A stretch of 58,700 bases of DNA. It comes from Gemmatimonadota bacterium. GTDB lineage: Bacteria; Gemmatimonadota; Gemmatimonadetes; Gemmatimonadales; Gemmatimonadaceae. This document shows positions 49,772 through 55,940 of this stretch, piece by piece. Made by a program: the position numbers and the translations under genes. The notes under the pieces were generated by a model. That model was given only the letters and a program-made list of their open reading frames with translations. It did not search any database and was not told the origin of the DNA. Where the stretch lies: NCBI GenBank assembly GCA_002737115.1, contig NSHR01000012.1:1-58700 (forward strand). Direction: 5' to 3'. Within the stretch, counting starts at the first letter, position 1. The number at the start of each line of letters is the position of its first letter.

Positions 49772-49810
49772 TTGACATTTTCTTGATTTATGGTCATAGT
49801 CATGACTATG
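49772..49810 (+). promoter_or_regulatory. Toxin-antitoxin promoter and operator palindrome
   Basis: TTGACA (49772-49777) and CATAGT (49795-49800) are separated by exactly 17 nt. The latter is the left half of a perfect 16-bp palindrome, CATAGTCATGACTATG (49795-49810). The predicted transcription start falls on the antitoxin ATG at 49808, so the mRNA would have no leader. The antitoxin or complex probably binds the palindrome to autorepress, as in other type II modules. Confidence 0.75.
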
Positions 49811-50038
49811 GTCACTGTATCGAAAAGCGCCCTGAAAGCCCGTATGCTCGAGTTCTTCCGTGAAGTCGAGCGGACGGGTGAGGAGCTGGTGGTTACCAGC
49901 GACGGCGTGCCCGTGCTGAAGGTGGTGCCATTCAGCCAGACCCGCTCGGTCGAGGACGCGTTCGCTGACGTGCGTGGTCAGCTCGCGTGGACGGGTGATA
50001 TCGACGCCCCGACCGATGCCGAGTGGCCCGCGCTGTGA
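49808..50038 (+). CDS. Phd/YefM-type antitoxin
   Basis: 76 aa. The start MVTVSKSALKARMLEFFREV is the usual Phd/YefM N-terminal DNA-binding domain, followed by EELVVTSDGVPVLKVVP and an acidic toxin-binding tail (DAFADVRGQLAWTGDIDAP). The ATG at 49808 fits the family length; ATGs in frame at 49802 and 49790 would overlap the operator and add nothing recognisable. The toxin gene follows after 7 nt. Confidence 0.92.
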   Translation: MVTVSKSALKARMLEFFREVERTGEELVVTSDGVPVLKVVPFSQTRSVEDAFADVRGQLAWTGDIDAPTDAEWPAL

Positions 50039-50045
50039 GCGGCAC

Positions 50046-50438
50046 GTGAGTCGCGTGGTGCTCGACACCTCGGCGCTGCTGTTCTGGACGCTCGCGCCAG
50101 AGCGGCTGTCGGAGCGGGCACGGGTGGCGATCGACGGGGCCACACCGTTCGGCTGGCTGGCGAGCGCGATCTCGCTGTGGGAGATCGGCCTCAAGGTACA
50201 GCGCAACCAACTCTCGCTCGGCGTGACGTTCGCCGAATACGTGCAACGTCTGCAACTCGTGGACGGCTTGGTGTTGGCACCGGTGGATGTGCGCACGTGG
50301 CTGCGCACCCTCGAGTTGGACTGGGCGCATCGCGATCCGGCCGACCGTGTGATCGTGGCGACGGCGGAGTTGCAGTCGTTGCCGTTGGTCACGTCGGATG
50401 CGGAGATGGGTCGATATTACGCGGATGTGGTGTGGTGA
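50046..50438 (+). CDS. PIN-domain RNase toxin (VapC-like)
   Basis: About 130 aa from GTG 50046. Metal-binding acidic residues are present in LDTSALLFW (first Asp), ISLWEIGLK (Glu) and HRDPADRVIVATA (Asp), with a further Asp in VTSDAEMG. This is a PIN RNase; the Phd-type partner is a common alternative to VapB. Likely substrate is a tRNA or rRNA, unknown here. The pair could be a plasmid- or chromosome-maintenance module or a stress element. Confidence 0.92.
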   Translation: MSRVVLDTSALLFWTLAPERLSERARVAIDGATPFGWLASAISLWEIGLKVQRNQLSLGVTFAEYVQRLQLVDGLVLAPVDVRTWLRTLELDWAHRDPADRVIVATAELQSLPLVTSDAEMGRYYADVVW

Positions 50439-50463: not shown

Positions 50464-53400
50464 CTACCGATAGTTGTGTCCCTTTACATGCTGTTCGCCA
50501 CCACCCAGCTCCAGCGCCTTGAACTGTTTGGCGCGCACGTTCACCACCTGCTGTTCCACCTGCAGCGTGCCGCGAATGAGCAGCATCGGTGACCGGGAAA
50601 TGAGCTGGGCCTGTGCTTCGTAGCGATCGGGGGTGATCACGATGTTGATCATCCCCGTTTCGTCTTCGAGGGTGAGAAAGACGAATCCTTTGGCGGTGCC
50701 CGGGCGCTGGCGGCAGATCACCAGTCCGGCCACGGCCACGCGCTGTCCATCCTTGCCCAGTTCGTGCGCGTCACGGGCCGACAGCACGCCGTTGGGCGCG
50801 AGAATGGGGCGCACATGCTTCATGGGATGCCCGGCCAACGACAGCCCCGTCATGCGATAGTCGGCTTCGGTGAGTTCGATGGGCGTGTGTGAGGGCAGCT
50901 GCGTGGGAACGGGGTGCGCCTGAAAGGGCGCCAGCGGCAACTCGGGACCACGGGTGGATGCCATCACTTCCCACAGCGCCACGCGCCGCCGCCGTTCGGC
51001 CGGTTCGTGCGCGAACATACTGTCGAACGCACCGGCTTCGGCCAGTCGTCGCCATGACGTTTTATCAAGCGACACGCGACGCACGGCGTCGTTGACGCTG
51101 GTGAACGGCCCATGCACCAACGCCGCTTCGAGGGCGCGACGGGCCTTGGCGCCCAGTCCACGCACGAGTCGCACACCCAAGCGCACCGCCACCACATCGC
51201 GCATGGGTTGCGGGCCGACGTGCCGCCCCCAGCGCACCACGCCATCGTTGGGCACGAGCACGCGTCCATCGGCCATTTCCAGCGCGTGATCCCACGTGCT
51301 GCGCGTAAGATCAACCGGGTGCACCTCCACACCGTGTCGCTTGGCGTCTTCGATGAGCGTGCTCGGCGCGTAGAAGCCCATCGGTTGCGCGTTAAGAATG
51401 GCGGCGGTGTACTCCGGCGCGTAGTAGTGCCGCAGCCAGGCGGTGGCGTACACGATGAGCGCGAAACTGGCCGCATGACTTTCGGGAAAGCCGTAATCGG
51501 CGAAGGCGTTGATCTGGTTGTAAATGCGGCGGCCGGTTTCTTCAGGGATGCCGTTCTTGGCCATGCCCGCAATCAGTTCTTCACAGATCTGCGCCATGCG
51601 TTCGCGCGACCGCTTATGCCCCATGGCGCGCCGCAACTGATCGGCTTGCGTGGGCGTGAAGCCAGCAGCCACGATCGCCACCTGCATGCCCTGCTCCTGA
51701 AAGAGCGGCACGCCGAGCGTGCGTTTGAGCACCTTCTCGAGCATGGGGTGTGGATACGTGACCGGTTCCAAGCCCGCGCGCCGTCGCAGATACGGATGCA
51801 CCATCTCGCCCTGAATAGGCCCCGGGCGGATGAGCGCGACTTCCACCACGAGATCGTAAAAACAGCGCGGCTTCAAACGCGGCAGCGTATTCATCTGGGC
51901 GCGACTTTCGATCTGGAAGAGTCCCACGGTATCGGCGCGGCACATCACGTCGTACACGGCCTGGTCGCTCATGTCGAGCTGCCCAAGATCGATCGTGGTG
52001 CCGCGTGTGTGCCGGATGTACAGCAGGCAATCCTGCACCACGGTGAGCATGCCGAGCCCCAGCAGGTCGATCTTGACCAAGCCTACGGGATCGAGGTCGT
52101 CTTTCTCCCACTGGATCACGGTGCGCCCCGGCATGGAGGCGGGCTCGATGGGCACGATGGAGCCGAGTGGTTCTTCGGTGAGAATGAACCCGCCCACGTG
52201 AATGGAGCGATGACGCGGCAGTTGGTGCAGGCCGGCGACGACATCGGCCAAGCGACGTACGCGTTCGTCGTTGGGATCGAGACCGGCGCGGGTGAGCAGA
52301 TCACTACTCGTGATTGGCTCAGGTTGCGCCCGCGCATCGGCCGCGATCTTTCGCTCGGCCTGCATGTCGATGACCTGCGCCCACGTGCTGTCGCGGTCGG
52401 CGTCGGTGGTGTGTGGTACGGTGGGTGGTGTCGTTGTTGCACCGTCCGCCAATGGTGTGTCGACCCGCAACGCCTCGGCGGTACTCCGCGCACTGAACCG
52501 ATCACTCAGCGATGCCAGCATATCCCCCTGCTGCACCGAGAAGCCCAGCACGCGCGCCGCGTCGCGCACGGCGCTGCGTCCGCGCCAGGTGATCTGCTCG
52601 CACACCATGGCGGCGTGTTCGCGCCCGTAGCGATTATACACATACTGTAGCACGCGCTCGCGATCGCGGTGGGCGAAGTCGATATCGATATCGGGTGGCT
52701 CTTTGCGTCCTTCGCTTAAAAACCGCTCGAACAGCAGCTCCATGCGAATGGGATCGACCGCCGTGATGCCCAGGCAGTAGCACACCGCCGAATTGGCGGC
52801 GGAGCCACGACCCTGACAGAGAATCCCTTCGCGTCGTGCGAAGCGCACGATGTCCCACACGGTGAGAAAGAAGCCGGCGAGATCGAGCTTGCCGATCATC
52901 GCCAGTTCGTGGGCGAGTTGGGTGTCGTGCTTTGGCGTGCGCGACGTGTCCCACCGCTCGTAGGCGCCCTGTTCCACCAGGCGCGTGAGATACTCCTGCG
53001 CGCTGATGCCCGGCGGCAGTGGAAACGCCGGCATGGATGGCTTGAGCTGCTCGAGCCGGAACGTGCATCGCTCGGCGATGGCGAGCGTGGCCTTCACCCC
53101 TTCCTCCGCGCCACGCCACCGCTGATAGATGAGCGACGGCTTCTTGAGCGCCCACTCGGCGTTGGGACGCAGGCGCGTGCCCATGGTGTCGAGTGTGCGC
53201 TCGTGACGCAGCGTGTTCAGCACATCGTGCACGATGCGCTGTGCGGGGGTGGCGTAGTGCACGTTGTTGGTGACCACCCATGGCACGCCGAGCTTGGCCG
53301 CCAGTGGACGCAACTGCTGCACCAGCGCGCGCTCTTCCGGCAACCGATGATCCCAGCATTCCACCGCGAGATGCTCACCGAACACATCGCGCAATTCACC

Positions 53401-53871
53401 GGCGGCGGTGTAGGCGTCGCTGGCGCGGCCCTCGGCCAGCAATTGCGGCACCCAGCCGCGCGGACAGCCGGTGAGGGCCATCACGCCCTCTACATGGCGC
53501 GTAACAAGCGCCCAGGGCACACTGGGGGTGCCACGTTCGCTGTCCATGCGCGCCCGCGTGACCAGCGAGGCGATGTTGCGATAGCCGTCGCGCGTTTCGG
53601 CGAGGAGCACCATGTGGGTGCGTCGTTCGGCGCCGGGGTTACCGATGTCGGGCATCCGCACGGTAAGCTCGACGCCCAGAATGCCGCCGATGCCGAGCGC
53701 GGCGCAGGCCGTGCCGAAGCGGACCACGCCCCCCATTTCATCGTGGTCGGTGATGGCCAGGGCGGGGTATCCCAGCTCAGCGGCGCGCTCGGCCAGTGAC
53801 TCGGGGAGCGAGGCCCCGTCGAGGAGGGAGAGGGCCGAATGGCAATGGAGTTCGACGTACTGGTTCGGCAT
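50464..53871 (-). CDS. dnaE2: Error-prone DNA polymerase DnaE2
   Basis: About 1135 aa. An N-terminal PHP domain (ELHCHSALSLLDGAS and ITDHDEMGG), the polymerase catalytic PDIDIDFAHRDRERV, the helix-hairpin-helix region and a C-terminal OB fold are present. DnaE2 (ImuC) makes translesion and mutagenic synthesis, usually with ImuA and ImuB; neither was found in this window. The start MPNQYVELHCHS is chosen at 53871; an upstream ATG at 53889 is possible. A LexA-like GTTC-N7-ATTC direct repeat lies directly before the start, and the gene diverges from the photoactive yellow protein. Confidence 0.93.
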   Translation of the reverse strand: MPNQYVELHCHSALSLLDGASLPESLAERAAELGYPALAITDHDEMGGVVRFGTACAALGIGGILGVELTVRMPDIGNPGAERRTHMVLLAETRDGYRNIASLVTRARMDSERGTPSVPWALVTRHVEGVMALTGCPRGWVPQLLAEGRASDAYTAAGELRDVFGEHLAVECWDHRLPEERALVQQLRPLAAKLGVPWVVTNNVHYATPAQRIVHDVLNTLRHERTLDTMGTRLRPNAEWALKKPSLIYQRWRGAEEGVKATLAIAERCTFRLEQLKPSMPAFPLPPGISAQEYLTRLVEQGAYERWDTSRTPKHDTQLAHELAMIGKLDLAGFFLTVWDIVRFARREGILCQGRGSAANSAVCYCLGITAVDPIRMELLFERFLSEGRKEPPDIDIDFAHRDRERVLQYVYNRYGREHAAMVCEQITWRGRSAVRDAARVLGFSVQQGDMLASLSDRFSARSTAEALRVDTPLADGATTTPPTVPHTTDADRDSTWAQVIDMQAERKIAADARAQPEPITSSDLLTRAGLDPNDERVRRLADVVAGLHQLPRHRSIHVGGFILTEEPLGSIVPIEPASMPGRTVIQWEKDDLDPVGLVKIDLLGLGMLTVVQDCLLYIRHTRGTTIDLGQLDMSDQAVYDVMCRADTVGLFQIESRAQMNTLPRLKPRCFYDLVVEVALIRPGPIQGEMVHPYLRRRAGLEPVTYPHPMLEKVLKRTLGVPLFQEQGMQVAIVAAGFTPTQADQLRRAMGHKRSRERMAQICEELIAGMAKNGIPEETGRRIYNQINAFADYGFPESHAASFALIVYATAWLRHYYAPEYTAAILNAQPMGFYAPSTLIEDAKRHGVEVHPVDLTRSTWDHALEMADGRVLVPNDGVVRWGRHVGPQPMRDVVAVRLGVRLVRGLGAKARRALEAALVHGPFTSVNDAVRRVSLDKTSWRRLAEAGAFDSMFAHEPAERRRRVALWEVMASTRGPELPLAPFQAHPVPTQLPSHTPIELTEADYRMTGLSLAGHPMKHVRPILAPNGVLSARDAHELGKDGQRVAVAGLVICRQRPGTAKGFVFLTLEDETGMINIVITPDRYEAQAQLISRSPMLLIRGTLQVEQQVVNVRAKQFKALELGGGEQHVKGHNYR

Positions 53872-53879
53872 GGGATACC

Positions 53880-53894
53880 GAATATACACCGAAC
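53880..53894 (-). promoter_or_regulatory. Putative LexA box before dnaE2
   Basis: Read on the minus strand the sequence is GTTC-GGTGTAT-ATTC, a direct repeat with one mismatch to the alphaproteobacterial SOS box GTTC-N7-GTTC, ending 8 nt before the dnaE2 start. DnaE2 is often SOS-regulated. Whether this phylum's LexA uses the same box is unknown. Confidence 0.4.
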
Positions 53895-54001
53895 ATCGTG
53901 GATTTGACGAGGCTGGATGGCGGGCACTTCCGCCGCGGTACCGCCGTTAGCTTGCCGAAATGTCTCATTCCAACCGCCCCTCCCGTCGTCCCGAGCACAC
54001 G

Positions 54002-54382
54002 ATGAACAACGTGCTCGAGCATGCCGATACGATGTCCACCGAGGAGTTGGACAAACTGCCATACGGCATGATCCAGCTGGACGCGACGGGGCGGATTCTG
54101 AACTACAACGCGGTGGAGTCGAAGCTGGCGTCGTTGAAGAAGGAAGACGCTATCGGCAAGCAGTTCTTCACCGAGATCGCGCCGTGCACGAAGGTGCAGG
54201 ACTTCTACGGACGCTTCAAGGAAGGGGTGATCCGTGAATCACTCGATACCAGCTTTCGCTTTCATTTTGCGTTCAAGCAGAACCCGCGTGACGTGACCGT
54301 GCGGCTGCTGTATTCGCGCCGGACACGTACGGTGTGGGTGTTGATTTCGGATCATGACGGGAAGCCGCTGGAAGGCATGTGA
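54002..54382 (+). CDS. pyp: Photoactive yellow protein (PAS-fold blue-light photoreceptor)
   Basis: 126 aa from ATG 54002, matching the 125-aa length of classic PYP. Without any gap, Tyr42, Glu46, Pro68 and Cys69 of the Halorhodospira protein map to Tyr35, Glu39, Pro61 and Cys62 here; the cysteine sits in TEIAPCTK, the site of the covalent p-coumaric acid. FYGRFKEGV and the downstream beta strands also fit. Thr50 and Arg52 equivalents are replaced by Ala and Leu, so the absorption and photocycle may differ. No tyrosine ammonia lyase or coumarate ligase is nearby. An ATG at 53960 is also in frame. Divergent from dnaE2, convergent with susD. Confidence 0.85.
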   Translation: MNNVLEHADTMSTEELDKLPYGMIQLDATGRILNYNAVESKLASLKKEDAIGKQFFTEIAPCTKVQDFYGRFKEGVIRESLDTSFRFHFAFKQNPRDVTVRLLYSRRTRTVWVLISDHDGKPLEGM

Positions 54383-54551
54383 ACGGCCAAATGCTTAGGA
54401 GGCACTAGAACTGCCAAATGCTTAGGAGGCAGGGGGGAGGGTGTCAGGAAGGAGGGGGCAGGACTGCACGCCGTTGCTGCTTCCTCCTTCCTGACCCCCT
54501 CCTCCCTGCCTCCTAGGCAGTTGGCAGTCAGTTCAGCCCATCAGCCCACGC
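54383..54551. repeat. Convergent gap with 46-bp near-perfect inverted repeat and 19-bp direct repeat
   Basis: GCCAAATGCTTAGGAGGCA occurs at 54386-54404 and again at 54413-54431 (27-nt period). The second copy is the start of a long hairpin: a purine-rich left arm 54410-54455 pairs with 54483-54528 with few mismatches, around a 27-nt loop. The arms are G/A-biased with runs such as GGGGGG. It may form a strong bidirectional terminator or a triplex structure; no gene is present. Confidence 0.8.
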
Positions 54552-55940
54552 CTATCCCCCCAGCACGTTCACGCACCCCTTGGGCGGAGCGGCCAAGCGC
54601 TGGTTGCATTCGTCCACCGGGATCGGCACCAACGGGAAGACGCGGTGGCTGGGCAACTGCTTCCTGAGGTCACCGAGCCGGTTGTAGCGGCGCGAATCGA
54701 CCCAGCGATGCCCGTACTCGAAGAACAACGAGTAGCGGCGATCGTACAGCATTTCGGTGACGAGATCACCCGAGAAGTCGGCCGCTAGGGCCGGCAGGCC
54801 ACCGGCGTTGGTGCGCACGAAGTTCAGATCGGCGATCGCGGCGGCTCGATTGCCGAGTCCGATGTTGGCTTCGGCGCGAAGGAGGATGAGCTCTTCGTTC
54901 CGGATGATCGGGATCGACGTAACGTTCGTGGGATACACGATGGGACGCACGTTCGAGCTAATGCCCTGCGTGGCGAGGTTCACCGTGCCCACCACGGCTT
55001 TAGTCGTGGCCCGCAGATCACGCGAACCATCCATGCGTAGGCGCGCCTCGGTGAGGAACTCCGGTACCGCCACGATGGCGCGCGGTGCCGGATCGAACAG
55101 CGGGTTGGTCGCGTCGCCCGATGCCGTGCTGTACACATGGTACACACCGGTGGCGAAGCCGGCGGTGGTGCCGCCGGCGGTGCTGACGAACGACTCATTC
55201 AGCGCCGTCAGGGCGTCGGCCCAGCGACCGCGGTACACCTCGAGGCGCGCCTTGAGGCCGCGGTTCACGCGCACGAAGTTGGCCGGCGTATTGAAGCCGG
55301 TAAATCCCGTGGTCAGCGTGAACGGGAACGCCGCGCCCGCTGCGGCGAGATCGGTGCGCGCTTCGTCGAAGAGCGCCGCCGTCTTCGTGTACGCTTCCTC
55401 GCGCGTGATGAACGCCCCCTGCACGGTGGGATCCTTCGGCACGTCGAACACGAGGCCGAAGGTATCACGCACGCGCAGCTGATTCATGTACTCGAGCGCC
55501 ATGAACGTTTTCACAAATCCTTTTACACCGCTCTTCTGGGCGGCCGTGTAATCGGGGACGGCGTCGACCACGTTGAGGATGGTGTACGCGTTGCGAAGAT
55601 TACGGTACGAGTTGGACCAGCCGGCGTCGGTGCCGAAGCCACCCGGCTCCAGCGGTCCGATGAGCAGCGCGAGCACGTTGCGCGGCTCGGCGCCGTCGAG
55701 ATTCATGATCTCGCGGCCGAAGATGCCGAGCGTGCTGGCCCAGGTGCCGGCGCCGGAGCGCGAGCCAGCGAGGACGCCGGCCACGGTGGTGTTCACCGTC
55801 GCGGCGTTGGGCGAGCCTTCCAGCTGCGAGGTGTTGGGGCTGTTGAAATTCGCGATGTCAGCCGACTGACAGGCGACGATGCTGGCACAGGCGGCTACGA
55901 ACAACAAGGTGCGCGCCTGGCGATGACGGAATGTGGTCAT
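54552..55940 (-). CDS. susD: SusD/RagB-family outer-membrane lipoprotein
   Basis: 462 aa. A leader with lipobox SIVAC precedes SusD-type TPR-rich sequence: NAYTILNVVDAVPDYTAAQK, EELILLRAEANIGLGNRAAAIADLNFVRTNAGG and the C-terminal MLYDRRYSLFFEYGHRWVDSRRYNRLGDL with KQLPSHRVFPLVPIP, a family hallmark. It binds a glycan or peptide for its partner TonB receptor, whose stop codon lies 2 nt before this start. The substrate is unknown; no glycosidase is in the window. Confidence 0.93.
   Translation of the reverse strand: MTTFRHRQARTLLFVAACASIVACQSADIANFNSPNTSQLEGSPNAATVNTTVAGVLAGSRSGAGTWASTLGIFGREIMNLDGAEPRNVLALLIGPLEPGGFGTDAGWSNSYRNLRNAYTILNVVDAVPDYTAAQKSGVKGFVKTFMALEYMNQLRVRDTFGLVFDVPKDPTVQGAFITREEAYTKTAALFDEARTDLAAAGAAFPFTLTTGFTGFNTPANFVRVNRGLKARLEVYRGRWADALTALNESFVSTAGGTTAGFATGVYHVYSTASGDATNPLFDPAPRAIVAVPEFLTEARLRMDGSRDLRATTKAVVGTVNLATQGISSNVRPIVYPTNVTSIPIIRNEELILLRAEANIGLGNRAAAIADLNFVRTNAGGLPALAADFSGDLVTEMLYDRRYSLFFEYGHRWVDSRRYNRLGDLRKQLPSHRVFPLVPIPVDECNQRLAAPPKGCVNVLGG

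Follow-up and report, generated by a model that had tools for sequence, protein, structure and literature searches.

In known photoactive yellow proteins (PYPs), Cys69 carries the chromophore, and Tyr42 and Glu46 form a hydrogen-bonding pair; a trans-cis photocycle is usual for these proteins, and blue light accompanies sunlight. Chromophore binding at Cys69 is given as the membership criterion for PYP in the text of PMC9664959. The survey PMC12826048 lists PYP in Gemmatimonadota, so its presence in the phylum is already known; the pyp neighbors listed there are histidine-kinase, GGDEF/EAL, or pCL genes, and the way in which PYP passes its signal on is stated as a gap. The other described systems closest to the present locus are the SOS mutagenesis cassette imuA-imuB-dnaE2, in which dnaE2 is also termed imuC, and the UV-damage endonuclease UvdE/UvsE (TIGR00629).

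Here, in contrast to the neighbors listed in PMC12826048, a pyp gene lies head-to-head with dnaE2. The locus is part of a 58,700-nucleotide contig of a Gemmatimonadaceae genome (NSHR01000012.1), which was analyzed at its full length and which we term the window; the phylum, Gemmatimonadota, had been named correctly in an initial annotation of this DNA. It is the placement beside dnaE2 for which no report was found: among the papers listed in the literature searches, no PYP-dnaE2 association is described (the text of PMC8508746 names both, in separate places), and the words DNA repair, photolyase, polymerase, endonuclease, and DNA damage are absent from the main texts of PMC9664959 and PMC12826048. 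Overall, the interpretation in the initial annotation is partly supported, and the dnaE2 adjacency, the most unusual feature, is absent from it. The explanation that best accommodates the whole, and for which we see even chances, is that a genuine PYP serves as a light input to UV-damage tolerance beside dnaE2.

Predicted fold, chromophore pocket, and chromophore supply

The pyp gene occupies positions 53960..54382 on the forward strand and would encode 140 amino acids from ATG 53960 or 126 from ATG 54002 (54002-54379), in agreement with the open reading frame and the length of 126 residues proposed initially. The two starts were compared in 12 loci whose products share 94% identity or more with the window protein. 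An in-frame ATG stands at the position equivalent to 53960 in eight of them (L031-L035, L084, L100, L103) and is missing from four (L036/L101 and L037/L102, two contigs); the position equivalent to 54002 is ATG in none of the 12, GTG in 11, and no start codon in L034. Both starts are possible, 53960 being at least as likely.

The product is a single-domain protein that Pfam labels as 'PAS fold' only. The profile search against the PYP family suggested in the initial annotation matches TIGR02373 (photo_yellow) over residues 6-115 with an E-value of 3.7e-31 and 107.8 bits, with Cys69 present; the curated equivalog cut-off of 143.05 is not reached. As this model finds only ~20% of PYP homologs according to the text of PMC9664959, the miss is not taken as exclusion from PYP. 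Solved PYP chains align without gaps to residues 11-115 (E 1e-23 to 1e-22), and 42 of 105 residues are identical to the Halorhodospira halophila PYP core, likewise ungapped. Moreover, the solved structures nearest to an AlphaFold2 model of the protein (mean pLDDT 90.5, pTM 0.85, from 52 aligned sequences) are PYPs at an rmsd of 1.2-1.5 Å, with TM 0.86-0.89 for the first 20, and PDB matches 1-41 are all PYP or PYP-derived (FAST). Profile match, alignment, and model all uphold the PYP identity claimed before: judged by these, 53960-54382 encodes a genuine PYP with a predicted PYP-type PAS fold. A generic PAS domain without photochemistry was considered and rejected in view of Cys69, Tyr42, and Glu46, the TIGR02373 match, and PYPs being the closest structures.

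Numbering in the window protein is offset by seven from that of H. halophila PYP (n here equals n+7 there). In the ungapped alignment Tyr35 (codon 54104..54106, forward strand), Glu39 (54116..54118), and Cys62 (54185..54187) coincide with Tyr42, Glu46, and Cys69, exactly as had been read from the sequence. Glu46 and Cys69 are kept in 41/41 aligned rows of the window's ortholog, and position 42 is Tyr in 38 and Phe in three (the rows include the window, and some genomes are represented by two records). At positions 47, 49, 50, and 52, the window protein has Ser, Leu, Ala, and Leu. The initial annotation had correctly named the replacements of Thr50 by Ala and Arg52 by Leu relative to H. halophila PYP, but its worry about function does not stand: Ser47, Leu49, Ala50, and Leu52 are the family consensus in a survey of 984 sequences, and four PYPs with Ala50 have a measured absorbance maximum, as given in the text of PMC12826048. 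Ala50 and Leu52 are rejected as a sign of lost function. The window protein thus resembles the PYP family (H. halophila PYP, TIGR02373, and PAS_PYP as described in the text of PMC9664959) in 105 ungapped residues, the three pocket residues, the predicted fold, a single domain of 126-140 residues, and the four consensus positions; it differs in the TIGR02373 score below cut-off and in having no TAL or pCL neighbor. From this pocket, we infer that the protein binds p-coumarate and photocycles, and we consider it likely that it would act as a blue-light sensor.

PYP homologs (E <= 1e-8, Cys69-less paralogs included) are found in 52 of 395 sampled genomes of the phylum. A tree of 130 columns, in which many forks are unsure, resolves them into group A, to which the window's protein belongs (one clade, SH-aLRT 80), group B, the Cys69-less proteins of the genus (one clade, 98), groups C and E, and others; groups A and E are separate. 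The host genome (2.05 Mb, 57% complete, with the window as contig C4) holds one PYP match. In group B, position 69 is Ser or Gly and Glu46 is kept in 14/14 loci (L116-L125, L127, L128, L130, L132). By these residues, the paralog is a PYP fold unable to hold the usual chromophore through Cys69. In 11 of the 14 loci, it lies head-to-head with a member of cluster c4, in L120 a sodium:solute symporter, and no PYP other than this paralog was found in G019.

The initial annotation was right that chromophore-making genes are not nearby, which is usual: TAL is part of 5% of predicted pyp operons and pCL of 32%, and uptake of p-coumarate is suggested for operons without TAL in the text of PMC12826048. 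Environmental uptake is our guess for the window PYP as well. The tyrosine ammonia-lyase search that had been proposed was run: a PF00221 lyase was not found in the 57%-complete host genome and is present in 29 of 30 genus genomes. An S-H motif, which we take to mark the histidine-lyase type as an H-L motif presumably marks the TAL type, occurs in 28/30 fetched lyase loci, a fragment in G172 being unclassifiable. A TAL-type lyase is recognized in one of the 30 genomes, G039, which is also the only such case among the 18 genus genomes with a group A pyp. This second lyase of G039 has the H-L motif and PDB 2o6y as its best match (presumably the Rhodobacter TAL, the record reading putative histidine ammonia-lyase), and it lies ~4 kb from a group C PYP on the same strand. 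Two further genomes (G373, G397) have a second lyase of the YHGCG type, which we assume might act on tyrosine.

These data bear on whether the chromophore has been lost or changed, leaving the protein without a chromophore (apo-PYP) or with a different ligand. Such a loss would fit a genus that usually lacks a recognized TAL, the one in G039 lying near a different PYP, and sister paralogs that show how the attachment residue is indeed lost in this lineage. We nevertheless regard it as unlikely: the constancy of Glu46, Cys69, and, with three exceptions, Tyr42 across the ortholog rows suggests that the pocket is used, the YHGCG-type lyases may supply tyrosine-acting enzymes in two genomes, and most published pyp operons also lack TAL (PMC12826048, as listed there).

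Two adjacent photosynthetic reaction-centre genes (PF00124) of the host genome are located at G000:C32:12783-14440, and because of them, the host is probably an anoxygenic phototroph that lives in light. PF00124 matches occur in 23 of 30 genus genomes. A strict link between pyp and photosynthesis was considered and rejected, as G332, G112, and G384 have a group A pyp without PF00124, and G181, G279, G303, and G172 have PF00124 without a group A pyp.

The head-to-head arrangement of pyp and dnaE2

dnaE2 (imuC), which encodes an error-prone DNA polymerase, lies at 50464..53889 on the reverse strand, head-to-head with pyp, and is identified by NF004225 (1237 bits against a cut-off of 939) and its Pfam domains. 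The open reading frame opens at GTG 53889; ATG 53871 is the likelier start, which leaves 53872..53959 as the intergenic region common to the two divergent genes. Among 32 Gemmatimonadaceae genomes with the window's pyp ortholog (group A; nine genera), the head-to-head arrangement, with the first dnaE2 match at most 220 bp from pyp, holds in 28 genomes from eight of the nine genera. In three others dnaE2 lies 3.6-4.4 kb from pyp on the same side, and in one (G245) it was not found within 6.9 kb. As 18 of the 32 genomes belong to the window's genus, the independent events are far fewer than 32.

The surroundings of the pair vary. Relatives' genes were called by a simple codon-position script, with which starts may be misplaced and false ORFs are possible; in these calls, the commonest gene cluster beyond dnaE2 recurs in just four of the 23 loci with a readable gene there, and the commonest neighbor 3′ of pyp, an ImuB-like cluster, is the nearest called gene in eight of 31 loci. 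The window's next gene after pyp (54552-55940; SusD-like, as judged by eye) has this position in none of the other 31 genomes. The pair itself persists in eight genera down to ~55% identity in the N-terminal part of dnaE2 and 58% in PYP. Further, pyp and dnaE2 distances agree across 28 genomes (Mantel r 0.82, with 0/2000 permutations as high), as expected from joint vertical descent.

The two genes also co-occur. At a threshold of E <= 1e-100, 115 of the 128 family genomes match the window dnaE2. In 77 the match is clear (E below 1e-180); the 38 weaker matches, with 44-46% identity among the matches listed, may be the replicative polymerase. A clear dnaE2 is present in 19 of the 20 group A pyp genomes of the family sample, G245 being the exception, and in 48 of the 90 genomes without group A pyp that were sampled in both searches (Fisher p 0.0003, kinship not corrected). 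pyp accompanies dnaE2, yet dnaE2 often occurs without pyp and does not need it.

An alternative is that the PYP serves a general light response, for example in motility, c-di-GMP signaling, or control of photosynthesis, and that the gene stands beside dnaE2 by an inherited accident that has no functional significance. Matching distances would likewise follow from plain vertical descent, pyp stands without a nearby or a clear dnaE2 in G245, and the two genes are kilobases apart in three genomes. Persistence of the pair across eight genera at such low identities, with outer neighbors that change, counts against an inherited accident. We see this alternative as a serious possibility that nonetheless falls well short of even chances; PYPs from other lineages, described below, bear on it in both directions.

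Three minor features of the sequences were seen in passing. Downstream of dnaE2, two small genes at 49790-50438 resemble a VapB/VapC-type toxin-antitoxin pair, as read by eye from their translations. Between pyp and the next gene, 54383-54540 forms a long hairpin with 52-nt arms that are 88% complementary; it is a dispersed repeat with 29 matches on 15 contigs of the host genome, the window's contig included, and looks like a small mobile inverted repeat. Finally, locus L042, on a contig labeled Candidatus Kuenenia, has a Gemmatimonas-type pyp and dnaE2 and is probably mislabeled or from a mixed bin.

The probable SOS box and imuB

The direct repeat TTCGGTGTATATTCGG at 53878..53893 on the reverse strand, 6 bases upstream of the dnaE2 ATG, is a probable LexA operator (SOS box). 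It is the sole occurrence of TTCGG-N6-TTCGG in the window, where mononucleotide shuffles give an expectation of 0.14. The same pattern stands upstream of lexA in 7/7 genus genomes in which lexA was found (eight searched), twice in six of them; in the host genome, at 57% completeness, lexA was not found. A tighter form of the repeat has 12 sites in eight genomes of a 10-genome scan, against none for the reversed control pattern. Five of these sites precede dnaE2, one precedes an ImuB-like gene (G203), and four are not tied to a repair gene; a RecA-like gene fitting ImuA in G055 is preceded by one tighter-repeat site. In G332, another of the 12 sites lies upstream of a uvrC-like gene with GIY-YIG and UVR domains (L219, ~783-2300), and with one mismatch allowed, the host genome has five repeat sites compared to one for the control. 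Since the repeat occurs before lexA, dnaE2, and other repair genes and the control pattern is rare or absent, TTCGG-N6-TTCGG is probably a LexA operator, if a putative one. It is an 11-base-period direct repeat like the Caulobacter operator GTTC-N7-GTTC reported in the text of PMC9578287, from which it differs in sequence. In the literature searched, no paper was found that names LexA, an SOS box, and Gemmatimonas together.

The organization of the known cassette in relatives without pyp was analyzed in 20 family genomes that lack group A pyp and were picked for a visible dnaE2 5′ end; three of them (G019, G068, G181) have a Cys69-less PYP paralog elsewhere. In 12 of the 20, dnaE2 is preceded within 240 bp by a co-oriented ImuB-like gene; in four such a gene lies farther upstream, and in the remaining four none was found within ~5 kb. 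Three ImuB-like proteins match IMS/Pol IV models weakly (E ~1e-5 in Pfam, to 3e-12 in NCBIfam), and that of L042 has no Pfam match; weak model matches are expected for a degenerate Y-family protein such as ImuB. The pyp-less relatives resemble the imuA-imuB-dnaE2 cassette, with dnaE2 adjoining an ImuB-like Y-family relative in these 12 genomes, and probable LexA operators are a further likeness.

In contrast to that cassette, the pyp genomes have either a reversed pyp between imuB and dnaE2 or an imuB that does not adjoin pyp. In nine of them, from six genera, an ImuB-like gene on the opposite strand ends at most 531 bp from the pyp 3′ end, giving the order imuB > < pyp < > dnaE2, with pyp reversed between both. 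The ImuB-like gene lies 2.5-7.0 kb from pyp in six further genomes, and the window, which extends to the contig end at 58,700, shows no imuB among the predicted genes beside pyp. pyp was probably first placed between imuB and dnaE2. On the simplest reading, it entered there in reverse orientation (alternatively, other lineages lost it), and in some lineages imuB was subsequently separated from it by rearrangement.

The repeat follows this organization. In 17 of the 32 genomes, the window included, it stands between pyp and dnaE2; in the other 15, no repeat was found in the 320 bp upstream of pyp, and two of these, G394 and G218, carry it before a dnaE2 that lies at a distance. With dnaE2 adjacent and no imuB seen next to pyp, 16 of 19 genomes have the repeat (the 19 include G337, whose contig is cut off before an imuB could be seen), compared to one of nine where imuB adjoins pyp. 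Analogously, the repeat precedes dnaE2 in 6/8 of the picked pyp-less genomes without an immediate imuB and in 0/12 with one. This distribution, in genomes with and without pyp, indicates a tendency for dnaE2 to carry a box of its own when separated from the imuB transcript. In loci of the order imuB > < pyp < > dnaE2, dnaE2 would either have another promoter or be reached by read-through across pyp, which is possible given that the repeat is mostly absent where imuB adjoins pyp.

A link through transcription only could also be envisaged: irrespective of what the protein senses, SOS gene levels would be set by divergent or antisense transcripts arising from the reversed pyp. Absence of the repeat in eight of the nine genomes with an adjoining ImuB-like gene and its presence in the 16 of 19 would suit such a role. 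Strong constraint on the ligand pocket of the protein argues against it, and we hold it to be quite improbable. As for signals of pyp itself, nothing constant beyond the dnaE2-side repeat was seen by eye in the part of the intergenic alignment viewed. In G112, a LexA-type repeat lies just behind the pyp 3′ end (G112:C50:168421-168436, the pyp match being 168046-168414) and not before dnaE2.

The uvdE-linked PYP clade and a proposed light input to UV-damage tolerance

A second PYP clade adjoins another UV-damage gene. Group E PYP is present in nine of 21 genomes of family f6, another Gemmatimonadota family of the same class, and in all nine, the genome's single uvdE match follows the group E PYP gene on the same strand. 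Seven of the nine were read as loci (L106-L110, L112, L113) and two from coordinates only (G422:C297, G423:C36). UvdE is identified by TIGR00629 above its cut-off and by a match to a UV endonuclease in the PDB (E 2e-38). Each uvdE-bearing f6 genome has a single match above the family cut-off; the preceding PYP gene is what differs from UvdE/UvsE as known, and no paper naming both PYP and uvdE was found in the literature searched. Group E PYP keeps Cys69 and Glu46, and position 42 is Phe in six of the seven loci read. Five f6 genomes have uvdE without group E PYP. The upstream neighbors of group E pyp, carbohydrate-kinase and PRC-barrel genes, are conserved too, and an SOS-type box was looked for before the uvdE-linked pyp genes and found in none of the seven loci. 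Consequently, the pyp-uvdE linkage is less specific and weaker evidence than the linkage with dnaE2. Several of the seven upstream regions share, by eye, a block like TTGACA-AAC-N-TTATACA.

For the inherited-accident alternative, these PYPs cut both ways. A separate PYP clade next to uvdE counts against it; two other Gemmatimonadota PYPs (L111 and L141) adjoin GGDEF proteins, one of them also with EAL, as a general light-response PYP might. Taken together, the pyp-dnaE2 adjacency, the co-occurrence, the probable SOS box, the uvdE-linked clade, and the phototrophy genes of the host lead us to a link of pyp with UV-damage repair or tolerance, whose prospects we put at about even or slightly better. 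A counterpoint is that adjacency is not function and that PYP has no output domain that would connect it with the polymerase.

In the preferred explanation, light input to UV-damage tolerance, the intact pocket would hold a 4-hydroxycinnamoyl (p-coumaroyl) chromophore on Cys69, and the PYP would switch in blue light by a trans-cis photocycle. Blue light would signal to the cell that UV lesions are coming. In its light-altered state, PYP might then target a partner involved in tuning translesion synthesis, either ImuB/DnaE2 or a regulator of theirs; both this partner and the direction of the effect are what we infer. More tentatively, and in our estimate rather doubtful, mutagenesis itself may be light-gated: the PYP photocycle would govern the ImuB-DnaE2 mutasome, either switching its action or setting its strength, and the f6 PYP would control UvdE. 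If so, blue light would be an early warning of UV damage, PYP would have an output in DNA repair, for which no report was found in the literature searched, and free-living bacteria, some of them phototrophic, would have a light-tunable mutation rate.

If the broader link is true, a bacterium couples a visible-light sensor to error-prone repair. Linkage to an SOS polymerase and a UV endonuclease offers a concrete, testable PYP output, namely UV survival and mutation frequency in light versus dark. G039 and G074, both single-contig genus genomes, carry group A pyp, which makes a functional test feasible if cultured strains exist.

In G039, genes for a TAL-like lyase and an HDOD protein lie downstream of a third PYP gene, that of the group C protein mentioned above, in the same orientation (L129, 4111-9997). 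Another gene between them has a marginal match to CheA.
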